A stretch of DNA of 37,764 nucleotides from Candidatus Zixiibacteriota bacterium (GTDB lineage: Bacteria; Zixibacteria; MSB-5A5; WJJR01; JAJRUJ01). Shown here piece by piece: positions 26,217 through 34,466 of the stretch (the first letter of the stretch is position 1; every line of letters starts with the position of its first letter). The stretch lies in the NCBI GenBank assembly GCA_024277855.1, contig JAJRUJ010000026.1, positions 1 through 37,764 of the forward strand. The letters are read 5' to 3'. The notes beneath the pieces are model-generated. The model had not been told where the DNA came from. It was given only the letters and a program-made list of their open reading frames with translations, and searched no databases. The position numbers were made by a program, and so were the translations under genes.

Positions 26217-27422
26217 ATGATTGAATTTATTAAGAAAAACAACCTGCTCCTGATCTTCCTCGGCGTAATCATCGGCGCGGTCTGGTCGATCTTTCATCCC
26301 TCATCCGCCGAACCGTTTCGCTATCTGGGGTACGCTTTCCTTAATGCCCTGAAACTGGTGGTCATCCCGCTGATTTTTACCACCATTACCACGAGCGTTA
26401 CACAACTGGGCAACATGCGGCGATTCGGCAAACTCGGACGCAATACCATCATCTATTACCTGTTGACCAATGTCGCGGCGGTCACCGTCGGCCTGATCAT
26501 GGTCAACCTCATCCAACCCGGTGCCGGTATGGTTCCGCCGTCCACCGATTTTATCGCTCCGCAGCGGGGTTGGATCGATTTCATCGACACCGTCCTTCCC
26601 GCCAACCTGATTACCGCGCTGGCCGAAAACCGCATCCTGCCGCTGATCTGGTTGTCGCTGCTGTTAGGGGTATTTTTAATCCGCTCCGGACAACGCGCCG
26701 CCGGCGCAATTGACTTTTTGAATCTGCTCAATGACGGTATCCTCAAACTGGTCCAAACCATTGTCATGTTCGCCCCGCTCGGGGTCATGGGTTTGGTCAT
26801 CGGCCAGGTACTTAAGCATGGCGGTGGTGCAGAAATCTGGACGTCGTTGGTTGGTGTCGGGTGGTACTCACTCACGGTAATCGCCGCCCTGGCTTTCCAC
26901 GCCATCGTCGTGTTGCCGCTGATATTTCGTCTGATCACCGGCCGGTCGGTATCCCGTTACCTGCTCAATATGGGGGAGGCGCTGCTCACGGCATTTTCGA
27001 CCGCGTCGTCGGCGGCAACCCTGCCGATTACCCTCCGCTGTGTCCAGGTCAAAAACAAAGTCGAAAAAAGAGTCGCCGGTTTTCTTCTGCCGCTGGGCGC
27101 CACGGTCAATATGGACGGCACCGCGCTGTACGAGGCGGTTGCCGCGATGTTTATCGCCCAGTCGTACGGGATCGATCTGGCCCTCTGGCAGCAGGCGATC
27201 ATCTTTCTCACGGCCAACATGGCCGCAATCGGCGCGGCCGCCATTCCCGAAGCAGGCCTGGTGACCATGGTAATGGTCCTGCATTCGGTTGGTTTGCCCG
27301 TTGAGGGGATTGCCTTGATTCTAATCGTCGATTGGTTGCTCGATCGTTTCCGCACGGCTGTCAACGTCTGGGGCGACTCGGTCGGCGCGGCGGTGGTCGA
27401 TGCAAAAACGTCGCTGGATTAA
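26217..27422 (+). CDS. Dicarboxylate/amino acid:cation symporter (DAACS family)
   Basis: The 401-residue protein belongs to the glutamate/C4-dicarboxylate carrier fold. Signatures are the serine-rich hairpin loop AFSTASSAATLP (about 261-272), GATVNMDGTALYEAVAAMFI (about 292-311; the NMDGT stretch binds sodium and substrate), the HP2 segment IGAAAIPEAGLVTMVMVLH and the TM8 block WLLDRFRTAVNVWGDSVGAA. The arginine in DRFRT supports binding of an acidic side chain, so glutamate, aspartate or a C4-dicarboxylate is likely. It is coupled to Na+ or H+. The length is normal for prokaryotic members. Confidence 0.93.
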   Translation: MIEFIKKNNLLLIFLGVIIGAVWSIFHPSSAEPFRYLGYAFLNALKLVVIPLIFTTITTSVTQLGNMRRFGKLGRNTIIYYLLTNVAAVTVGLIMVNLIQPGAGMVPPSTDFIAPQRGWIDFIDTVLPANLITALAENRILPLIWLSLLLGVFLIRSGQRAAGAIDFLNLLNDGILKLVQTIVMFAPLGVMGLVIGQVLKHGGGAEIWTSLVGVGWYSLTVIAALAFHAIVVLPLIFRLITGRSVSRYLLNMGEALLTAFSTASSAATLPITLRCVQVKNKVEKRVAGFLLPLGATVNMDGTALYEAVAAMFIAQSYGIDLALWQQAIIFLTANMAAIGAAAIPEAGLVTMVMVLHSVGLPVEGIALILIVDWLLDRFRTAVNVWGDSVGAAVVDAKTSLD

Positions 27423-27773
27423 AAAATTAAACGCCCGTAATATTGTCCAGTACAATTAGATACAGGTTTTTGGTGCGCCGCGAATGGCCGGCTATTCTCC
27501 CGTCGTCCGATCCGGTTGTTTCAAGTATAGTTCCTTTTTGCCGATAGAGTAAGATAGCTTGCCAGTTTGCGAAACCCTCCCGCTGGACTTTCTCCAGGGA
27601 GGGTTTCTGCTTTTTTGAAACTACAAACCTGATCGGACTGTCAATCCATGGTTTTCATCCCCACCGGCCTTTAATTCCAATGGTTTTCCAATTGTCTGTT
27701 CAGGCGATAGACCGGGATTCCGATACTTGAATAGAGAAGCAGTGGACCCACGATCCCAGCTGAGGTGACCGGC
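27423..27773. other. Intergenic region before the signalling island
   Basis: It contains an intrinsic terminator at 27571-27616 and no convincing gene. I could not find a well-spaced promoter for the phosphatase gene in the last 150 bases. Confidence 0.5.
27571..27616 (+). terminator. Rho-independent terminator separating the symporter from the signalling island
   Basis: A perfect 11-bp stem, gaaaccctccc (27571-27581) with gggagggtttc (27597-27607), is followed by TGCTTTTTT. It lies about 150 bases after the symporter stop. Confidence 0.85.
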
Positions 27774-29120
27774 ATGACCGAGATGTGTCAATCGGATACG
27801 ACGACAGATGCTCAAATCTCTCCGGCAATCAGGGTTGCCGAGCTTGAACTGGATCTGGAGCGGATTAAACAGAACCTCGAAGATATTTCCCGGATGGGTG
27901 CGGTCCTGACTTCGATTACCGATCTGGAGGAAGTGCTTTCGGTTTTGATGCAAATGGCGTTGCGGGTAATTGGCGCCGAAGTCGGTCTGATTATGACCGA
28001 CGGTCCCGGTGGTCCGACACCCAAGATTGTCTGGGGATTTGAAGCCGACGCAGTCTCCGTGCTGCAATGTGAAGACGGCAGAAATGTTGTCGAATGGGTG
28101 ATGACCAACGGGGAAGGCGCCAGTCTCGATTTTTCCGAGCACACTAATGGTCTCGAATACGACGGCCGCCGGTTGATGGTTGGCGGGGTACTCTGTCTGC
28201 CGATTAAGGCCAAGCTGGCTACGGTCGGTTGTGTTCTCGCGGTCAACAAGATAGTCGGCGGGCCGTTTACCGATGACGACCACAACGCTTTACAGCGCCT
28301 GGTCGATTTTGCCGGTGTTGCCATCGAAAACTCGCGCCTGTTCAAGGAATCTCTCGAAAAACAACGTCTCGAACAGGAGCTTTCGGTGGCCGAGGAAGTC
28401 CAGCAGACCCTGGTGCCGTCGGTCGATTTTGATTTTCCCGGGATCACGATCAAGTCGCTCTATCGGCCGGCCGGCAGAGTCGGCGGTGACTATTTCGACT
28501 TCATCCCGCGTGGAAAGGGGCAGTTCGTCCTGGTTATCGGCGATGTTTCCAGTAAAGGCGTACCGGCGGCGCTGGTGATGACCGCCGTCCGCTCGATCGT
28601 TCGCTCCGAGGCCCTGCGCTCCGACTCCACTGCCGAAGTTGTCTCGCGGATCAATGACTTGATCAGCAAAGACCTGACCGGGACCCGTGATATGTTCGTA
28701 ACCTTCTGGTATGGTTTATTCGACCTGAACAACGGCCGCCTCAAATACACCAATGCGGGGCATGAGCCGCCGTTGCTTTACAAAGCGCAATCGGCGTCGA
28801 TTGTCGAACTGCGAGACGGCGGCGTCTTCCTGGGGCAATTCCCCGGATCGGAATTTGCCGAGGGCGAGGTCGAATTGGCTCTCGGCGACCGTTTTATCAC
28901 CTGTACCGACGGGGTGATTGAGGCCGCGGATGCCGATTGCAATCTCTTTGGCCGCGAGCGGTTTCGGCAAACAATGGAGGACGGCGTTTCGCTGGAGCCG
29001 GAGGAGTTTCTGGAAAACCTCCGCCGGGACGTGGAGGAAAACTTCAATAATGCCGATTTCATAGACGATATGACGGTGGTGTTCGCGCGTATCGACCGGC
29101 GAGGAACTGAGAATGACTAG
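27774..29120 (+). CDS. GAF-domain PP2C/SpoIIE-type serine phosphatase, RsbU-like
   Basis: This 448-residue protein starts at the ATG at 27774, with GAGGTGA about six bases upstream; a GTG at 27765 is in frame but overlaps that ribosome site. Residues about 20-40 can form a short coiled coil, a GAF domain spans about 42-190, and a helical linker leads to the SpoIIE/PP2C domain (about 205-445). Metal-binding aspartates are visible in RVGGDYFDF (D239), IGDVSSKGVPAAL (D257) and TCTDGVIEA (D379). Such phosphatases dephosphorylate a STAS-domain antagonist and so release a switch kinase's target. The partner is encoded immediately downstream, overlapping by eight bases (ATGACTAG). The GAF ligand is unknown. 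Confidence 0.93.
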   Translation: MTEMCQSDTTTDAQISPAIRVAELELDLERIKQNLEDISRMGAVLTSITDLEEVLSVLMQMALRVIGAEVGLIMTDGPGGPTPKIVWGFEADAVSVLQCEDGRNVVEWVMTNGEGASLDFSEHTNGLEYDGRRLMVGGVLCLPIKAKLATVGCVLAVNKIVGGPFTDDDHNALQRLVDFAGVAIENSRLFKESLEKQRLEQELSVAEEVQQTLVPSVDFDFPGITIKSLYRPAGRVGGDYFDFIPRGKGQFVLVIGDVSSKGVPAALVMTAVRSIVRSEALRSDSTAEVVSRINDLISKDLTGTRDMFVTFWYGLFDLNNGRLKYTNAGHEPPLLYKAQSASIVELRDGGVFLGQFPGSEFAEGEVELALGDRFITCTDGVIEAADADCNLFGRERFRQTMEDGVSLEPEEFLENLRRDVEENFNNADFIDDMTVVFARIDRRGTEND

Positions 29121-29949
29121 ACGAAGCTTGCAACGTGCCGAGCTGTGTTTCCCTGCGGACATTCGCTACCTGAGTTGGGTGCATGCGTTATTTGAGCGGG
29201 TGGCCGGTGAGTACGACTTCGACGCCCGCAGACGTAACCTGATGCTGGTGACAATCAGCGAGGCATTCACCAATGCCGTCATCCATGGCAGCAGGAAAGT
29301 GCCTAATGCGGTGATCGATCTGGTCATTATTACCCGGTCTGATTACCTCGAAATTAAACTTATCGATCACGGTCGCGGTTTGATCGCCTTGCCCCCGCAT
29401 TCTGAGTGGGGTGCTCTCGATCCCGAGCGTGAGGGCGGGCGCGGGCTGGACCTGATGGATCGCTTGACCGACGACATGCAAATGACAGAAACCTTTGGCG
29501 GCGGCCTGACCGTACGGTTGCGCTATCGCGCGCCGGCCCCGGAACCGCGGCCACCCGAAGCACTACATATTGATATATCTGCGAAAGGAGAAGCCATGGA
29601 ATTGCAGGCCGAACAAGCCGGGGAACTCGATGTTCTTCGCGTTACCGGCCGACTTGATCTGGTTGGCGCCAATGCTCTCAAAGATGAGATCAGGCGGCGC
29701 TTGCAGGACAATCGGCGGCTGTTGGTACTCAATCTTGAAAATGTCGATTTCATTAACAGTTCGGGACTCGGTGCATTAGTCTCGGTGCTCAAGGATGTGC
29801 GTCTGGTAAAAGGGCGTCTGGCGCTGACCAGCCTGGCCTCGTATGTCAAAGAAATATTTACGATCACCCAATTGTCCAATGTGTTCGAAATTTTTGAGAC
29901 CGAACGACAGGCCCGGGAAGCGTTGAATACTCCGGTGGCGACCGCCTGA
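29113..29949 (+). CDS. Fused switch kinase (RsbW-like HATPase) and STAS antagonist (RsbV-like)
   Basis: The 278-residue protein joins two normally separate partners. Residues about 8-138 are a GHKL ATPase of the anti-sigma/RsbW type, with E50 and N54 in the N-box (SEAFTNAVIHG), DHGRG (85-89) and the G2 box GGRGLDLMD (108-116). After a proline-rich linker (140-160) comes a STAS domain (about 163-270) with VDFINSSGLGALVSVLK; one of S216/S217 is the expected phosphoacceptor. AAAGGAG (29584-29590) lies five bases before an internal ATG at 29596, so a free 117-residue STAS protein may also be made. The gene start overlaps the phosphatase stop. No sigma factor gene lies in the window, so what the kinase restrains is unknown. 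Confidence 0.9.
   Translation: MTRRSLQRAELCFPADIRYLSWVHALFERVAGEYDFDARRRNLMLVTISEAFTNAVIHGSRKVPNAVIDLVIITRSDYLEIKLIDHGRGLIALPPHSEWGALDPEREGGRGLDLMDRLTDDMQMTETFGGGLTVRLRYRAPAPEPRPPEALHIDISAKGEAMELQAEQAGELDVLRVTGRLDLVGANALKDEIRRRLQDNRRLLVLNLENVDFINSSGLGALVSVLKDVRLVKGRLALTSLASYVKEIFTITQLSNVFEIFETERQAREALNTPVATA
29584..29598 (+). promoter_or_regulatory. Internal ribosome-binding site and ATG for a separate STAS protein
   Basis: AAAGGAG (29584-29590) with a five-base spacer to ATG (29596-29598) lies in the linker between the kinase and STAS domains, exactly where a stand-alone RsbV-like gene would begin. The signal is as strong as any in the island. The product would be 117 residues (29596-29949). 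Confidence 0.65.
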
Positions 29950-30016
29950 ACTTGCCTGCCGAAATTGTGCGGCATTCCGCGCATGACCACGTGGACCTTT
30001 GCCGGAGGGAATGCGG

Positions 30017-30427
30017 ATGGACCAACAAAATCGTCTGTTGATTGTTGATGATGAACTGTTGATTCGCGACTTGCTGTATGACCATTTCAGCGGGTGCGAT
30101 TATCAGGTCTCTCTGGCGGCTGACGGCGGGTCAGCGCTGGCGAAATCGGTGGGAAAAGAATTCGACGCCGTGATCCTCGATCTGAAGATGCCCGATATGG
30201 ACGGGCTCGAACTTGCGGCGCAGTTACGAGAAAACCAGACTGCCGTCCCGATCATCATCATTACCGGATATCCGTCTGTCGACAGCGCGATTGAGGCGTT
30301 ACGCAATCGCTGCCATGACTATTTCGTCAAACCGTTTAACATGAAGAAACTGGAAAGAGCTGTCAGGGAGGCCGTTGCCGAATATCGGAAGACTGCCCTC
30401 GGGACGGGGGAGAAACACAGTGACTGA
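30017..30427 (+). CDS. Single-domain response regulator (receiver only)
   Basis: From the ATG at 30017, seven bases after GGAGGG, the product is 136 residues; an in-frame ATG at 30011 is too close to the ribosome site. It is a receiver domain with the acidic pair in IVDDE, the phosphoacceptor aspartate in LDLKMPDMDG, the switch threonine in IITGYPS and the lysine in YFVKPF. No output domain follows, only a short tail. It is close in sequence to the next protein (GYP(S/T).DS.IEALR is shared), which suggests tandem duplication. Its alpha-4 region reads NRCHDY instead of the common AGAYDY. It probably passes phosphate or signal to a partner by protein contact. Confidence 0.92.
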   Translation: MDQQNRLLIVDDELLIRDLLYDHFSGCDYQVSLAADGGSALAKSVGKEFDAVILDLKMPDMDGLELAAQLRENQTAVPIIIITGYPSVDSAIEALRNRCHDYFVKPFNMKKLERAVREAVAEYRKTALGTGEKHSD

Positions 30428-31031
30428 CCAAACCTCAGAAAAACGCGTGTTGGTGATCGACGACGAGGTGTTCATCCGCGAACTTCTGGAGGAGTATTTC
30501 AGCCGGTTGGATTTCGAGGTGGTAACCGCCGAATCCGGTGACCAGGGCATCGAGCGGGTCAGTGCCGACCGTTTCAGTACAGCGTTGGTCGATTTGAAAA
30601 TGCCGGGGAAAGACGGCATCGAGACGTTGCGCGAAATCCGCCAGATCGATCCAAACTGTATGATTATTGTCATGACCGGATATCCGACAATCGATTCTTC
30701 GATCGAGGCCCTGCGGGCCGGGGCCTACGACTATATCATTAAGCCATTCAAACTGAGTGAATTGCGCGAGGTTGTCGAGCGGGCGATCAAAGAGTATTGC
30801 CTCAAAGCCGAGATTGAACAAATTCAAGACAACATTGAGATTGTCGAAGGTGAAATGCGGGACTATCTCGCGAAACCACGCCAGGACAGACCTTCTACTG
30901 CACTTCATCCGCACAACAGCGAAAAGTATATCCAGGGCCAGGTGCGTGAATTAGACCGCTTGCGTGAGGCCGGTTATCTTTCCGGCTGTGAATATGAACA
31001 AAAAAAACGCGATCTCCTTGCCCGGCGATGA
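30420..31031 (+). CDS. Response regulator receiver with SHOCT-like C-terminal tail
   Basis: It starts at the GTG at 30420, eight bases after GGGGGAG, and overlaps the previous stop by eight bases. The 203-residue protein has a receiver domain (about 8-125; IDDE, VDLKMPGKDG, VMTGYPT, IIKPF) followed by a helical, partly coiled segment (about 125-150) and a C-terminal motif LDRLREAGYLSGCEYEQKK (about 180-198). This last part resembles the SHOCT domain, a short helix-turn motif often added to proteins as an oligomerisation or membrane-complex module (family knowledge). No DNA-binding or enzymatic output is visible. Confidence 0.9.
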   Translation: MTDQTSEKRVLVIDDEVFIRELLEEYFSRLDFEVVTAESGDQGIERVSADRFSTALVDLKMPGKDGIETLREIRQIDPNCMIIVMTGYPTIDSSIEALRAGAYDYIIKPFKLSELREVVERAIKEYCLKAEIEQIQDNIEIVEGEMRDYLAKPRQDRPSTALHPHNSEKYIQGQVRELDRLREAGYLSGCEYEQKKRDLLARR

Positions 31032-31088
31032 TTGCCGGGAGCAAGTCTTGGGAACGACGGTAAGGCGATCGTGTTGACCGGAGGCAGC

Positions 31089-31466
31089 ATGGATGATTTG
31101 AAAATTCTTGCCGTTGACGATTCCCCGACCATGCGGCGGTTTATCGTCAACACCCTCCGGCATGCGGGATATCTGGATGTCACGGAAGCCACCGACGGTA
31201 AAGATGCCCTGGCCAAGATGGCCATCGATAAATATAACTTCATTATTACCGATTGGAATATGCCCGGTATGGACGGGATCGCCCTGGTCAAACATTTGCG
31301 TTCCAAACAGGAGACTAAAAAAATACCGGTCCTGATGGTCACCCGGCGTTCGGTGAAGGAAGATATTATGGAAGCGCTCCGGGCCGGGGTCAACAACTAC
31401 GTTGTCAAACCCTTCACGCACGGAACAATCAAAGAAAAAATTGACCAGACACTCGCAAATTTGTGA
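31089..31466 (+). CDS. CheY-like response regulator
   Basis: From the ATG at 31089 (GGAGG four to five bases upstream) this is a 125-residue stand-alone receiver of CheY type: AVDDSPTMRR at the N-terminus, phosphoacceptor D in ITDWNMPGMDG, switch T in MVTRR, and K in YVVKPF. The DDS-TMRR and TDWNMP blocks are those of CheY proper rather than of NtrC- or OmpR-type receivers. No flagellar or chemotaxis genes are nearby, so it may serve this signalling locus rather than motility. It is separated from the previous gene by 57 bases and is followed by a 337-base gap. Confidence 0.93.
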   Translation: MDDLKILAVDDSPTMRRFIVNTLRHAGYLDVTEATDGKDALAKMAIDKYNFIITDWNMPGMDGIALVKHLRSKQETKKIPVLMVTRRSVKEDIMEALRAGVNNYVVKPFTHGTIKEKIDQTLANL

Positions 31467-31803
31467 TCCCTTTATCAACGCTGATTGGCAGGATGGGGAG
31501 ATGGCCCCGCATCCGGACGTCTCAACATCATTTGGACAAGATCGGGGTACGGCGGATGTCGTCGACACGCCGGAGCGGAAATCCCCGCAATTGCGTCTGA
31601 TTCAGTTCCATTTCACCACTCCCAACAGAGGCCGAACCGCCGTTTTCTCTCCCGAAATTGACGGTTCTCCCCTGGGTTTTTCGACAAAATAGATTTCTGC
31701 CGCCGGCTTGCCGTCTGAGCCGATTTCAATATTTCTGAAAATCTCCCGTCTTTGCTGTCATTTTATCGTTGCGCACGAATCGGGCGACCCTATATTCGGC
31801 GAT
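31467..31803. other. Intergenic region with a probable histidine kinase promoter
   Basis: No gene is seen. Near its end TTGCGC (31769-31774), a 16-base spacer and TATATT (31791-31796) form a plausible promoter. The expected transcript start, about 31803, is next to the kinase ATG at 31804, and no ribosome-binding site precedes that ATG, so the message may be leaderless. Confidence 0.45.
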
Positions 31804-33030
31804 ATGGGGCAGGGGCAAACTGACCACACGGGGGACCCGGCGGCAGAAAATGGCTCATTGGAAGAGTTCGTTTTCTCCGTCGAGGCGTTCCAGGAAACCA
31901 TCGGCCGATTGAACCAGCGCTACCGCGATCTGGAAAAGCGGTATCTGGAAATAAATCGACAGTTGGAGGCCACCAACCGGCAATTGCAGGCCGCCGGTGA
32001 GGAAAACCGCCGGTTCGGCGACTACCTCGATTGTATCCTCAAAGGGATTGATGTCGGTATCGTCACCATCGACGAATTCGGCTTGATTCGCTTTTTCAAT
32101 CCGGCGGCGGCCCGGCTCCTTGGCGGGGATCCGTCGGCGATAATCGGCGGGTCGTTTGCTGAAACATTTGTCGAAATCCACCGGGAATTCACCGGCCGGC
32201 AGGAGACCACGTCAATAGAGATTGCGCGTCCGTGTCCGCAAACCGGGCGGGAATTACAACTGGCCATTAGTGTTTCGCCGATCGGTGGGGAGGACCAGCA
32301 CGCCGGGGCCGTCTATGTCGTCCGGGATCTCACCGGAGCGCGTGAAATGGAAAAAGAGATGAGCCGGCTCAAGACCCTGGCCGCGCTCGGCGAAATGTCG
32401 GCCACCCTGGCCCACGAAATCCGGAACCCCCTTACCGGGATTGCCGGGTATTCCGGTTTGTTGTTGCGCGAACTTCCCGATGGTCCCGAACGTCGCTGGG
32501 CCAGGCAGGTTGAGGAGGGTGTACACCGGCTCGAAAAGTTAATCCTGAACATGCTCGAGTTTGCCAAAGATCCCCGGTTGGATCGACGGACCATCCGCTG
32601 GCAGAATTTCGGGCAGGAAATCGCCAATGCGTTCGAGAGCGGTCTCTTAAAGAAAAACGTCAAACTCGTGCGAAAGTTTCCCGACAAATGGCCCAGTACA
32701 CAGGGTGATCCGTCATTATTGCGTCAGGCGGTTCTCAATATCCTGCAAAACGCCGAACAGGCGGTCGGCGAGGGCGGCGAAATCAGTCTGACGATCACCC
32801 CGGCCGCTGCCGGGCAACTCATGCTGGAAATATCCGATAATGGCCAGGGGATGGATGATCAAACCCGCGAAAATATATTTCAACCGTTTTTTACTACTCG
32901 TGAACAGGGTACCGGACTGGGGCTGGCGATTACGCGCAAGATTATCGAGGCGCACGGTGGCACGATCAATGTCGATTCCCGGCCGGGCAAAGGCGCGCGA
33001 TTTGCAATATCGTTACCCGCCGGCGCCTGA
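31804..33030 (+). CDS. PAS-domain sensor histidine kinase, NtrB-like, cytoplasmic
   Basis: The 408-residue protein is taken from the ATG at 31804; the frame opens further up only with a TTG. It has no membrane helix, so it senses an internal signal. A coiled coil (about 28-70) precedes a PAS domain (about 75-178; GIDVGIVTIDEFGLIRFFNP). The HisKA domain carries H204 in ATLAHEIRNPLTG. The ATPase domain shows the N-box NILQNAEQAV, DNGQGM, FFTTREQGTGLGLA and a closing GKGARFAISLP. The HEIRNPL box and length suit the NtrB/ZraS-type kinases that phosphorylate sigma54 activators, matching the NtrC-type gene 50 bases downstream. Confidence 0.94.
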   Translation: MGQGQTDHTGDPAAENGSLEEFVFSVEAFQETIGRLNQRYRDLEKRYLEINRQLEATNRQLQAAGEENRRFGDYLDCILKGIDVGIVTIDEFGLIRFFNPAAARLLGGDPSAIIGGSFAETFVEIHREFTGRQETTSIEIARPCPQTGRELQLAISVSPIGGEDQHAGAVYVVRDLTGAREMEKEMSRLKTLAALGEMSATLAHEIRNPLTGIAGYSGLLLRELPDGPERRWARQVEEGVHRLEKLILNMLEFAKDPRLDRRTIRWQNFGQEIANAFESGLLKKNVKLVRKFPDKWPSTQGDPSLLRQAVLNILQNAEQAVGEGGEISLTITPAAAGQLMLEISDNGQGMDDQTRENIFQPFFTTREQGTGLGLAITRKIIEAHGGTINVDSRPGKGARFAISLPAGA

Positions 33031-33080: not shown

Positions 33081-34466
33081 GTGAAACCGAATATTCTCAT
33101 CGTTGATGACGAACATCTGATTACAGATTTTCTAATCGACACCTTCAAACCGTCCGACTATGAAACCGAAACCGCCGCTTCCGGCGATGAAGCGGTCGAA
33201 ATGATTGCGCGGCGGGAGTATGACCTCATTTTTTCCGACGTTAGAATGCCCGGTCTTAACGGCCTCGAATTGCTCCGGAGGATTAAAAAAATCGCCCCCG
33301 AGACGGTTGTCGTGATGATGACCGCCTACGGCAGTGTACAGGACGCCGTCCAGGCGATGAAATCCGGCGCCTACGATTACCTGCTCAAGCCATTCGGTCC
33401 CGACCAGGCCACTCTGGTGGCCCAACGCGCCCTCGAACGTCGACAGCTTGTCCGCGAAAACCGTATCCTGCGCAACGAAGTCGCGGCGAAGTATTCATTC
33501 GAAAACCTGGTCGGCAAATCCAAACCGATGGAGCGGCTCTATTCTTTAATCGAATCGGTCTCCAACTCTCGGGCCACGGTCCTGATTTCCGGCGAATCCG
33601 GCACCGGCAAGGAACTTGTCGCCAAGGCCATCCACTATCATGGCAATCGTCAGGATGGGCCGTTTGTGGCGCTAAACTGCGCGGCGTTGCCCGAGGCGCT
33701 GATCGAGAGTGAGCTGTTCGGCCACGAAAAAGGCGCTTTCACGAATGCTGTCCGGCAGAAAAAAGGTCACTTTGAGATCGCCGATGGGGGAACGTTGTTG
33801 TTAGATGAAGTATCCGAAATGCCGCCGGGTCTTCAGGCCAAGTTATTGCGTGTCCTGCAGGAAAAGGAGATTCAGCGTCTTGGCTCCGAGGCGAAACTTC
33901 CGATTGATGTCCGGGTTATTGCCACCTCCAACCGGCACCTCCAAACCGAAATTGAAAACGGGAATTTCCGGGAAGACCTCTATTATCGGCTTAACGTCAT
34001 TCCGATTCACTTGCCGCCGCTGCGTGAACTGACGGCCGATATTCCGTCGCTTGTCGAGCATTTTATCAATATTTATAATGCCGAGAATAATCGAGCAATC
34101 AAACGAGTCACCGACCGGGTGATCGACTTATTCGAGGGCTATGCCTGGCCGGGTAATATCCGCGAATTGGAAAATTACATGGAACGGGCCATTGTAATCG
34201 CCGGGAATGAAACCCTGACGCCCGATGATTTCCCCTCGGAGTTGTTTACCGGCGGGGTCCGGCGGTCGACCGAGGCGATTCGCTCCGGGATGACCATCCG
34301 TGAAATGGAACGCTCGTTGATCCTCAAAACGCTCGAACAACAGGGCGGGAACCAGACCAAAGCAGCGGATTTGTTGGCGATCTCCACGCGAACGCTGCGG
34401 AACAAGCTCTACGAGTATGGGGTCAAAGAGGCGAAAACCCCGGCCGAAAAAGTCGATACCGAGTAA
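33081..34466 (+). CDS. NtrC-family sigma54-dependent response regulator
   Basis: The 461-residue protein starts at a GTG (33081) preceded by AAGGAGGG. The receiver domain (about 4-120) has DD9-10, phosphoacceptor D53 in FSDVRMPG, T81 in MMTAYGS and K103 in LLKPFG. The AAA+ domain (about 142-380) has Walker A GESGTGKE (171-178), Walker B GTLLLDE (237-243) and the sigma54-contact loop at 218-223, here GAFTNA instead of GAFTGA. A Fis-type helix-turn-helix (about 415-452; NQTKAADLLAISTRTLRNKL) ends it. It should activate promoters used by sigma54 RNA polymerase after phosphorylation by the adjacent kinase. I found no clear -24/-12 site in the window's gaps, so its targets may lie elsewhere. Confidence 0.95.
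   Translation: MKPNILIVDDEHLITDFLIDTFKPSDYETETAASGDEAVEMIARREYDLIFSDVRMPGLNGLELLRRIKKIAPETVVVMMTAYGSVQDAVQAMKSGAYDYLLKPFGPDQATLVAQRALERRQLVRENRILRNEVAAKYSFENLVGKSKPMERLYSLIESVSNSRATVLISGESGTGKELVAKAIHYHGNRQDGPFVALNCAALPEALIESELFGHEKGAFTNAVRQKKGHFEIADGGTLLLDEVSEMPPGLQAKLLRVLQEKEIQRLGSEAKLPIDVRVIATSNRHLQTEIENGNFREDLYYRLNVIPIHLPPLRELTADIPSLVEHFINIYNAENNRAIKRVTDRVIDLFEGYAWPGNIRELENYMERAIVIAGNETLTPDDFPSELFTGGVRRSTEAIRSGMTIREMERSLILKTLEQQGGNQTKAADLLAISTRTLRNKLYEYGVKEAKTPAEKVDTE

Follow-up and report, generated by a model that had tools for sequence, protein, structure and literature searches.

Organization of the locus

The window analysed here, that is the whole stretch of 37,764 bases, is the entire contig G000:C11 of a 3.07 Mb genome assembled in 129 contigs. 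An open reading frame that starts with ATG at 29113 and stops with TGA at 29949 encodes a kinase domain followed by a STAS domain in a single chain (Table 1), and both the coordinates and the description of this 278-residue gene in the initial annotation proved correct by ORF and Pfam analysis. The preceding GAF-SpoIIE gene ends at 29120 and overlaps the fused gene by 8 nt (ATGACTAG), an overlap that had also been reported; SpoIIE lies upstream in 16/16 neighbourhoods that contain the kinase.

Table 1. Features of the kinase-STAS locus, in window coordinates
Feature	Position	Strand	Evidence
GAF-SpoIIE (PP2C-type) phosphatase	27765..29120	+	Pfam SpoIIE (E 7e-50), GAF; upstream position conserved in relatives
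Fused kinase-STAS gene, 278 aa, 31.2 kDa	29113..29949	+	ORF; Pfam HATPase_c_2 and STAS; 17 fused homologues counting the window
RsbW/SpoIIAB-like GHKL serine-kinase domain, residues 13-137	29149..29523	+	PF13581; place in genome search; N/G1/G2 box residues; Foldseek to SpoIIAB
Inter-domain linker, residues 138-161, containing the internal ribosome-binding site	29524..29595	+	Predicted disordered; hypervariable among homologues
Internal Shine-Dalgarno (SD) sequence AAAGGAG	29584..29590	+	Sequence; SD in 17/17 fused homologues
Internal ATG (M162), candidate start of free STAS	29596..29598	+	In 17/17 fused homologues; aligns with true STAS start of split relatives
STAS anti-sigma-antagonist-type domain with SSG phosphosite	29596..29949	+	PF01740, TIGR00377; complete fold from residue 163
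Three receiver-domain genes	29999-30427, 30375-31031, 31032-31466	+	Pfam Response_reg
PAS histidine kinase	31708-33030	+	Pfam; synteny: downstream in part of relatives
NtrC-type sigma-54 activator	33081-34466	+	Pfam; synteny: downstream in part of relatives

Pfam places HATPase_c_2 at residues 13-137 (E 3e-16) and STAS at residues 165-267 (E 8e-20). The kinase half reaches 59.8 bits against PF13581 (cut-off 27.4), the STAS half 71 bits against PF01740 (cut-off 22.6) and 73.2 bits against TIGR00377 (cut-off 53.45), and NCBIfam assigns the latter, over cut-off, to the anti-sigma-antagonist superfamily. The kinase half stays under the RsbW/SpoIIAB equivalog cut-offs (TIGR01924 29.3/155, TIGR01925 40.7/135 and NF003144 36.0/145 bits); it can be considered related to RsbW and SpoIIAB, a claim of orthology being unsupported by these scores. 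Foldseek matched SpoIIAB, SpoIIAA, RsbV/RsbW complexes and the RsbU-RsbW part of Rv1364c. The kinase boxes and the SSG phosphosite had been described as intact, and we could extend this to the family: the N, G1 and G2 box residues E50, N54, H58, D85, G87 and G109-R110-G111 as well as the motif N215-S216-S217-G218 are invariant in 17/17 fused homologues, as is M162.

Among the downstream genes, the third receiver (31032-31466) is CheY-like and 61-72% identical to receiver-only proteins that follow the STAS gene of relatives, in G014 within a che cluster. The other two carry no output domain, and with the TTG starts as listed they would overlap by 53 bp; their true starts probably lie further in, for the first one at ATG 30017 behind GGAGG.

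Split and fused relatives across the phylum

We searched 132 genomes of the phylum, the class and phylum searches returning the same set, and obtained a match at E <= 1e-18 in 103 of them. Similarity to the window protein guided the choice of loci, and the 103 loci examined correspond to nearly one per genome, many of the assemblies being fragmented. The kinase lies directly upstream of STAS in 98/103 loci, as a separate gene in 81 and fused in 17, which rules out that the fusion is unique to the window. The homologue alignment suggested by the initial annotation returned fusion in 17 of 98 pairs, all 17 with the internal SD-ATG. An excess of split pairs in frame with each other, which would be a sign of stop-codon readthrough, was not seen (24/81, about one third).

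The 17 fused homologues span 12 genera in four separate lineages. Ten belong to f18, three to f2, two to f8 (genus g35) and one to f17; the window gene is the only case in f1, to which f2 is the sister family. In a maximum-likelihood tree built from the 96 pairs whose kinases score well, the fused genes occupy four well-separated places (f1 with f2, f8/g35, f17 and f18) and at least six changes of state are needed. Two split species of genus g71 are nested among the fused ones of f18, so that reversion to separate genes is likely in this family. At these two loci (L091 and L095) the kinase frame ends in TAG TAA TAA, followed by GGAGG-ATG, an arrangement that probably reflects fission of a fused gene with retention of its internal start.

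The nearest relative of the window protein (genome G001, 58% identity) is split by a TAG five codons ahead of the STAS ATG and retains the same ribosome site, AAAGGAGG. The TAG aligns with TCT of the window, in a stretch with several further substitutions, and comparison with G001 revealed no frameshift adjoining the kinase-STAS junction in the window. Because G001 is split by this TAG and keeps the ribosome site, the window fusion would reflect either loss of the stop, or fusion in the ancestor followed by gain of a stop in G001; parsimony cannot tell the two apart, and the window fusion may be young. In f17, fused L052 and split L092, the latter with an ATGA overlap, differ by one inserted base beside the SD, so that this particular fusion could be an assembly error. 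Since split relatives have the same SD-ATG, the sequences support an origin of the fusions from adjacent genes that retained the old start, in line with the earlier suggestion of two genes merging in this way.

A probable internal start at the domain junction

As the initial annotation had stated, AAAGGAG precedes an in-frame ATG (29596) by 5 nt at the domain junction. All 17 fused genes possess an ATG at the STAS start with an SD 5-8 nt upstream, which reads GGAGG in 14, AGGAG in 1 and GGAG in 2 cases. An SD energy of -8.2 kcal/mol or lower was found for 17/17 junction ATGs versus 9 of the 124 further in-frame ATGs that these genes contain, and the median anti-SD energy was -9.5 kcal/mol both at fused junctions and at true split STAS starts (Mann-Whitney p = 0.88). 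In 11/17 fused genes the internal SD exceeds the SD of the upstream start in strength; the window gene is one of them, with -8.7 and -6.5, respectively. Across the fused genes, the mRNA shows less folding near the internal start than at most positions in the gene (mean rank 0.22, p = 0.001); the window gene alone has an average rank of 0.50.

In f18, although the linker is hypervariable, all ten fused genes carry GGAGG-N5-ATG unchanged, with nnG GAG Gnn at codons -4, -3 and -2 and varying amino acids at -4 and -2. In the alignment of the ten genes, the third base is invariant in only 7/264 codon columns, two of which are -4 and -3; the chance of this at that given codon pair is about 6e-4. When the amino acids and each gene's own codon usage are taken as given, the probability that nine genus representatives all carry the exact SD codons is 3.4e-6; this value treats the representatives as independent, which holds only in part. 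The p-values are too optimistic, because the sequences share ancestry. Shuffling synonymous codons and scoring the result by its hybridisation energy with the anti-SD gave no significant signal (combined p = 0.11); several synonymous spellings of the SD codons also pair well with the anti-SD.

With the internal SD-ATG kept in 17/17 fused genes, equal in strength to split STAS starts and invariant in f18, we infer with good support from these sequences that one gene gives rise to a 31 kDa fusion and a 13 kDa free STAS (117 aa and 13.0 kDa as predicted from M162). The proposal that fused and free antagonist derive from the same gene can therefore be regarded as probable. Routine annotation would overlook the short product.

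Predicted structure of the fused chain

AlphaFold2, run with an alignment of fused and split relatives, predicted two confident domains, with pLDDT > 90 in most blocks, and a disordered linker in which residues 149-156 fall under pLDDT 50. The pTM of 0.64 leaves the relative placement of the domains undefined, and no fixed docking of kinase and STAS was predicted. The built-in cis inhibitor proposed in the initial annotation, with the tethered STAS acting on the kinase of its own chain, is possible. The first STAS strand starts at residue 163, one residue after M162, and a product initiated at M162 would consequently be a complete domain.

Genomic context and candidate targets

Downstream of the module, neighbourhoods of f1, f2, f11 and f18 carry genes for receiver proteins, for a PAS histidine kinase and for an NtrC-type activator, and those of f5, f8, f15, f16 and f17 have receiver genes from about 2.2 kb onward. 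Six loci of this latter group were inspected in detail (L020, L021, L024, L040, L052 and L122), and in five of them the gene after STAS encodes a HEAT-repeat-like protein of about 485 aa, Pfam-tested in L020. Downstream of the f8 locus L122 (genome G014) we observed a cluster of receiver, CheR, receiver, CheA and CheB genes, which ties the partner switch to chemotaxis. In genera g3 and g4 of f2, SpoIIE and the kinase are absent from the locus, and STAS, receivers, histidine kinase and NtrC stay; these are loci L010, L011, L013, L028, L128, L129, L130 and L132 (genomes G002, G003, G004 and G006), and in G002 a relative of the protein encoded at 26217-27422 of the window sits directly before STAS.

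The window's genome additionally contains a second kinase-STAS pair (G000:C6:4479-5292, minus strand), which is split and, as is classical, has the STAS gene ahead of the kinase gene; other genomes of the order contain similar pairs. No SigB/F/G-type sigma factor scored over cut-off in the genome, the best TIGR02980 match reaching 140 bits against 234, and by inspection this match, beside an FlhF-like gene, looks like FliA. FlgM was looked for in the same genome and not found, and Rfam returned one tRNA only in the window. As targets of the switch, motility or a sigma-54 pathway are guesses from this context.

Discussion

We consider it probable that the locus is a partner-switch module in which the genes of kinase and antagonist have merged into one dual-product gene. 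Its domains, intact motifs, operon arrangement and conserved internal start can be read directly from the DNA. In the model we propose, translation from 29113 would yield the kinase-linker-STAS chain, while initiation at the internal SD-ATG at 29596 would release free STAS. By analogy with SpoIIAB and RsbW, the kinase is probably dimeric, and judging from the family it would phosphorylate an SSG serine on both tethered and free STAS, with the phosphate being removed by the overlapping GAF-SpoIIE phosphatase. The most likely diffusible output, again by family analogy, would be free unphosphorylated STAS. The fusion would guarantee at least one antagonist per kinase in addition to a free pool, and tethering may insulate the pair from the second, split pair of the genome. 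That both products are made, as well as all of this biochemistry, we infer.

Several other explanations have to be weighed against the dual-product gene. The free STAS could be the only antagonist that matters, loss of the stop having no effect beyond letting ribosomes continue, and the fused chain acting as a kinase whose tethered STAS is neutral. Retention of the internal start everywhere would fit this, as would the interchange of split and fused states, with its six or more tree changes and a return to split genes in f18 g71 as the simplest reading, and the persistence of STAS in g3 and g4 of f2, where the locus has neither SpoIIE nor kinase. However, the linker frame of f18 is open across 7 genera with long branch lengths, which suggests that the fused form is maintained, and the kinase boxes and SSG motif are intact in the fused chains, so we regard a neutral tether as unlikely, though still as an account of real weight. 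The converse, in which only the fusion protein is made and the SD-ATG is an unused relic of the former intergenic region, gains from the possible youth of the window fusion next to a split G001 and from the non-significant energy-based shuffle. Conservation of SD and ATG in 17/17 fused genes, including an old fused family with an otherwise randomised linker, makes it improbable.

The same conservation bears on the reading of the SD-like site as a translational pause that aids inter-domain folding. Its position exactly at the domain boundary would suit a pause, but a pause needs no ATG at fixed spacing, whereas all 17 fused genes have the ATG, at the place where the STAS of split genes starts, rendering this explanation very improbable. 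The initial annotation had further held that its proposal would be refuted by a stop codon between the domains in related genomes, as a sign of a sequencing error or a recent mutation. Such a stop does exist in G001, and the window is one of the 129 contigs of its assembly; yet no frameshift lies beside the junction, the TAG of G001 corresponds to TCT amid several other substitutions, and independent fused homologues occur in f8, f17 and f18 as well as in f2, the sister family. That two genes were joined in this contig by an error of assembly or sequencing is hardly credible in view of the fused homologues in other families, and we reject it.

The proposed dual-product module shares the folds and motifs of its kinase, antagonist and phosphatase with the Bacillus systems SpoIIAB/SpoIIAA and RsbW/RsbV with SpoIIE/RsbU. 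In the spoIIA and sigB systems, these are separate proteins, with the antagonist gene first and the sigma gene last. The window instead shows the order phosphatase, kinase, STAS, with no sigma gene alongside. The statement in the initial annotation that kinase and antagonist are separate in known systems was wrong, since Rv1364c of Mycobacterium tuberculosis combines PAS, PP2C, kinase and STAS in a single chain, its own kinase phosphorylating STAS Ser600 and its own phosphatase reversing this (PMC9138534, PMC12143880, PMC10950880). Rv1364c, which we compared by description only, shares with the window an RsbW-like kinase N-terminal to STAS but has PAS and PP2C in the same chain, whereas the window phosphatase is a separate gene with an 8-nt overlap; no internal start for Rv1364c is described in the open-access papers searched. 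Internal starts are found in SpaO/SctQ, made as full-length and short form (PMC13059759), and in Cas11b, a C-terminal product released in this way (PMC11899642). As in these cases, the window gene would give two in-frame products of which the short one is the C-terminal part alone, but SpaO/SctQ and Cas11b are unrelated proteins of structural assemblies with no phosphorylation switch. The HsbR-HsbA partner switch of the Gram-negative Pseudomonas aeruginosa has a STAS antagonist with a tie to motility and FlgM as its partner (PMC6482189). The module before che genes in G014 resembles it, whereas HsbA is separate from HsbR, and FlgM was not found in the window's genome. Kinase-STAS fusion (Rv1364c) and genes with an internal start that releases a C-terminal product are thus already known separately, while recurrent kinase-STAS fusion with a constrained internal start in a partner switch did not turn up in the open-access papers searched.

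For partner switches, what counts is how much antagonist there is relative to kinase. With a fusion plus a released antagonist, a minimum ratio would be fixed by architecture and be tunable via one ribosome site. Only tentatively, and with more doubt than confidence, we suggest that this represents a repeatedly evolved dual-product switch, a self-buffering and insulated kinase whose tethered STAS would compete in cis with free STAS, in which the internal start would set the antagonist/kinase ratio and lineages may go from split to fused and back while always keeping the free antagonist. The phylum contains the pair in both forms, naturally split and naturally fused, so that the effect of tethering on the switch is directly testable.
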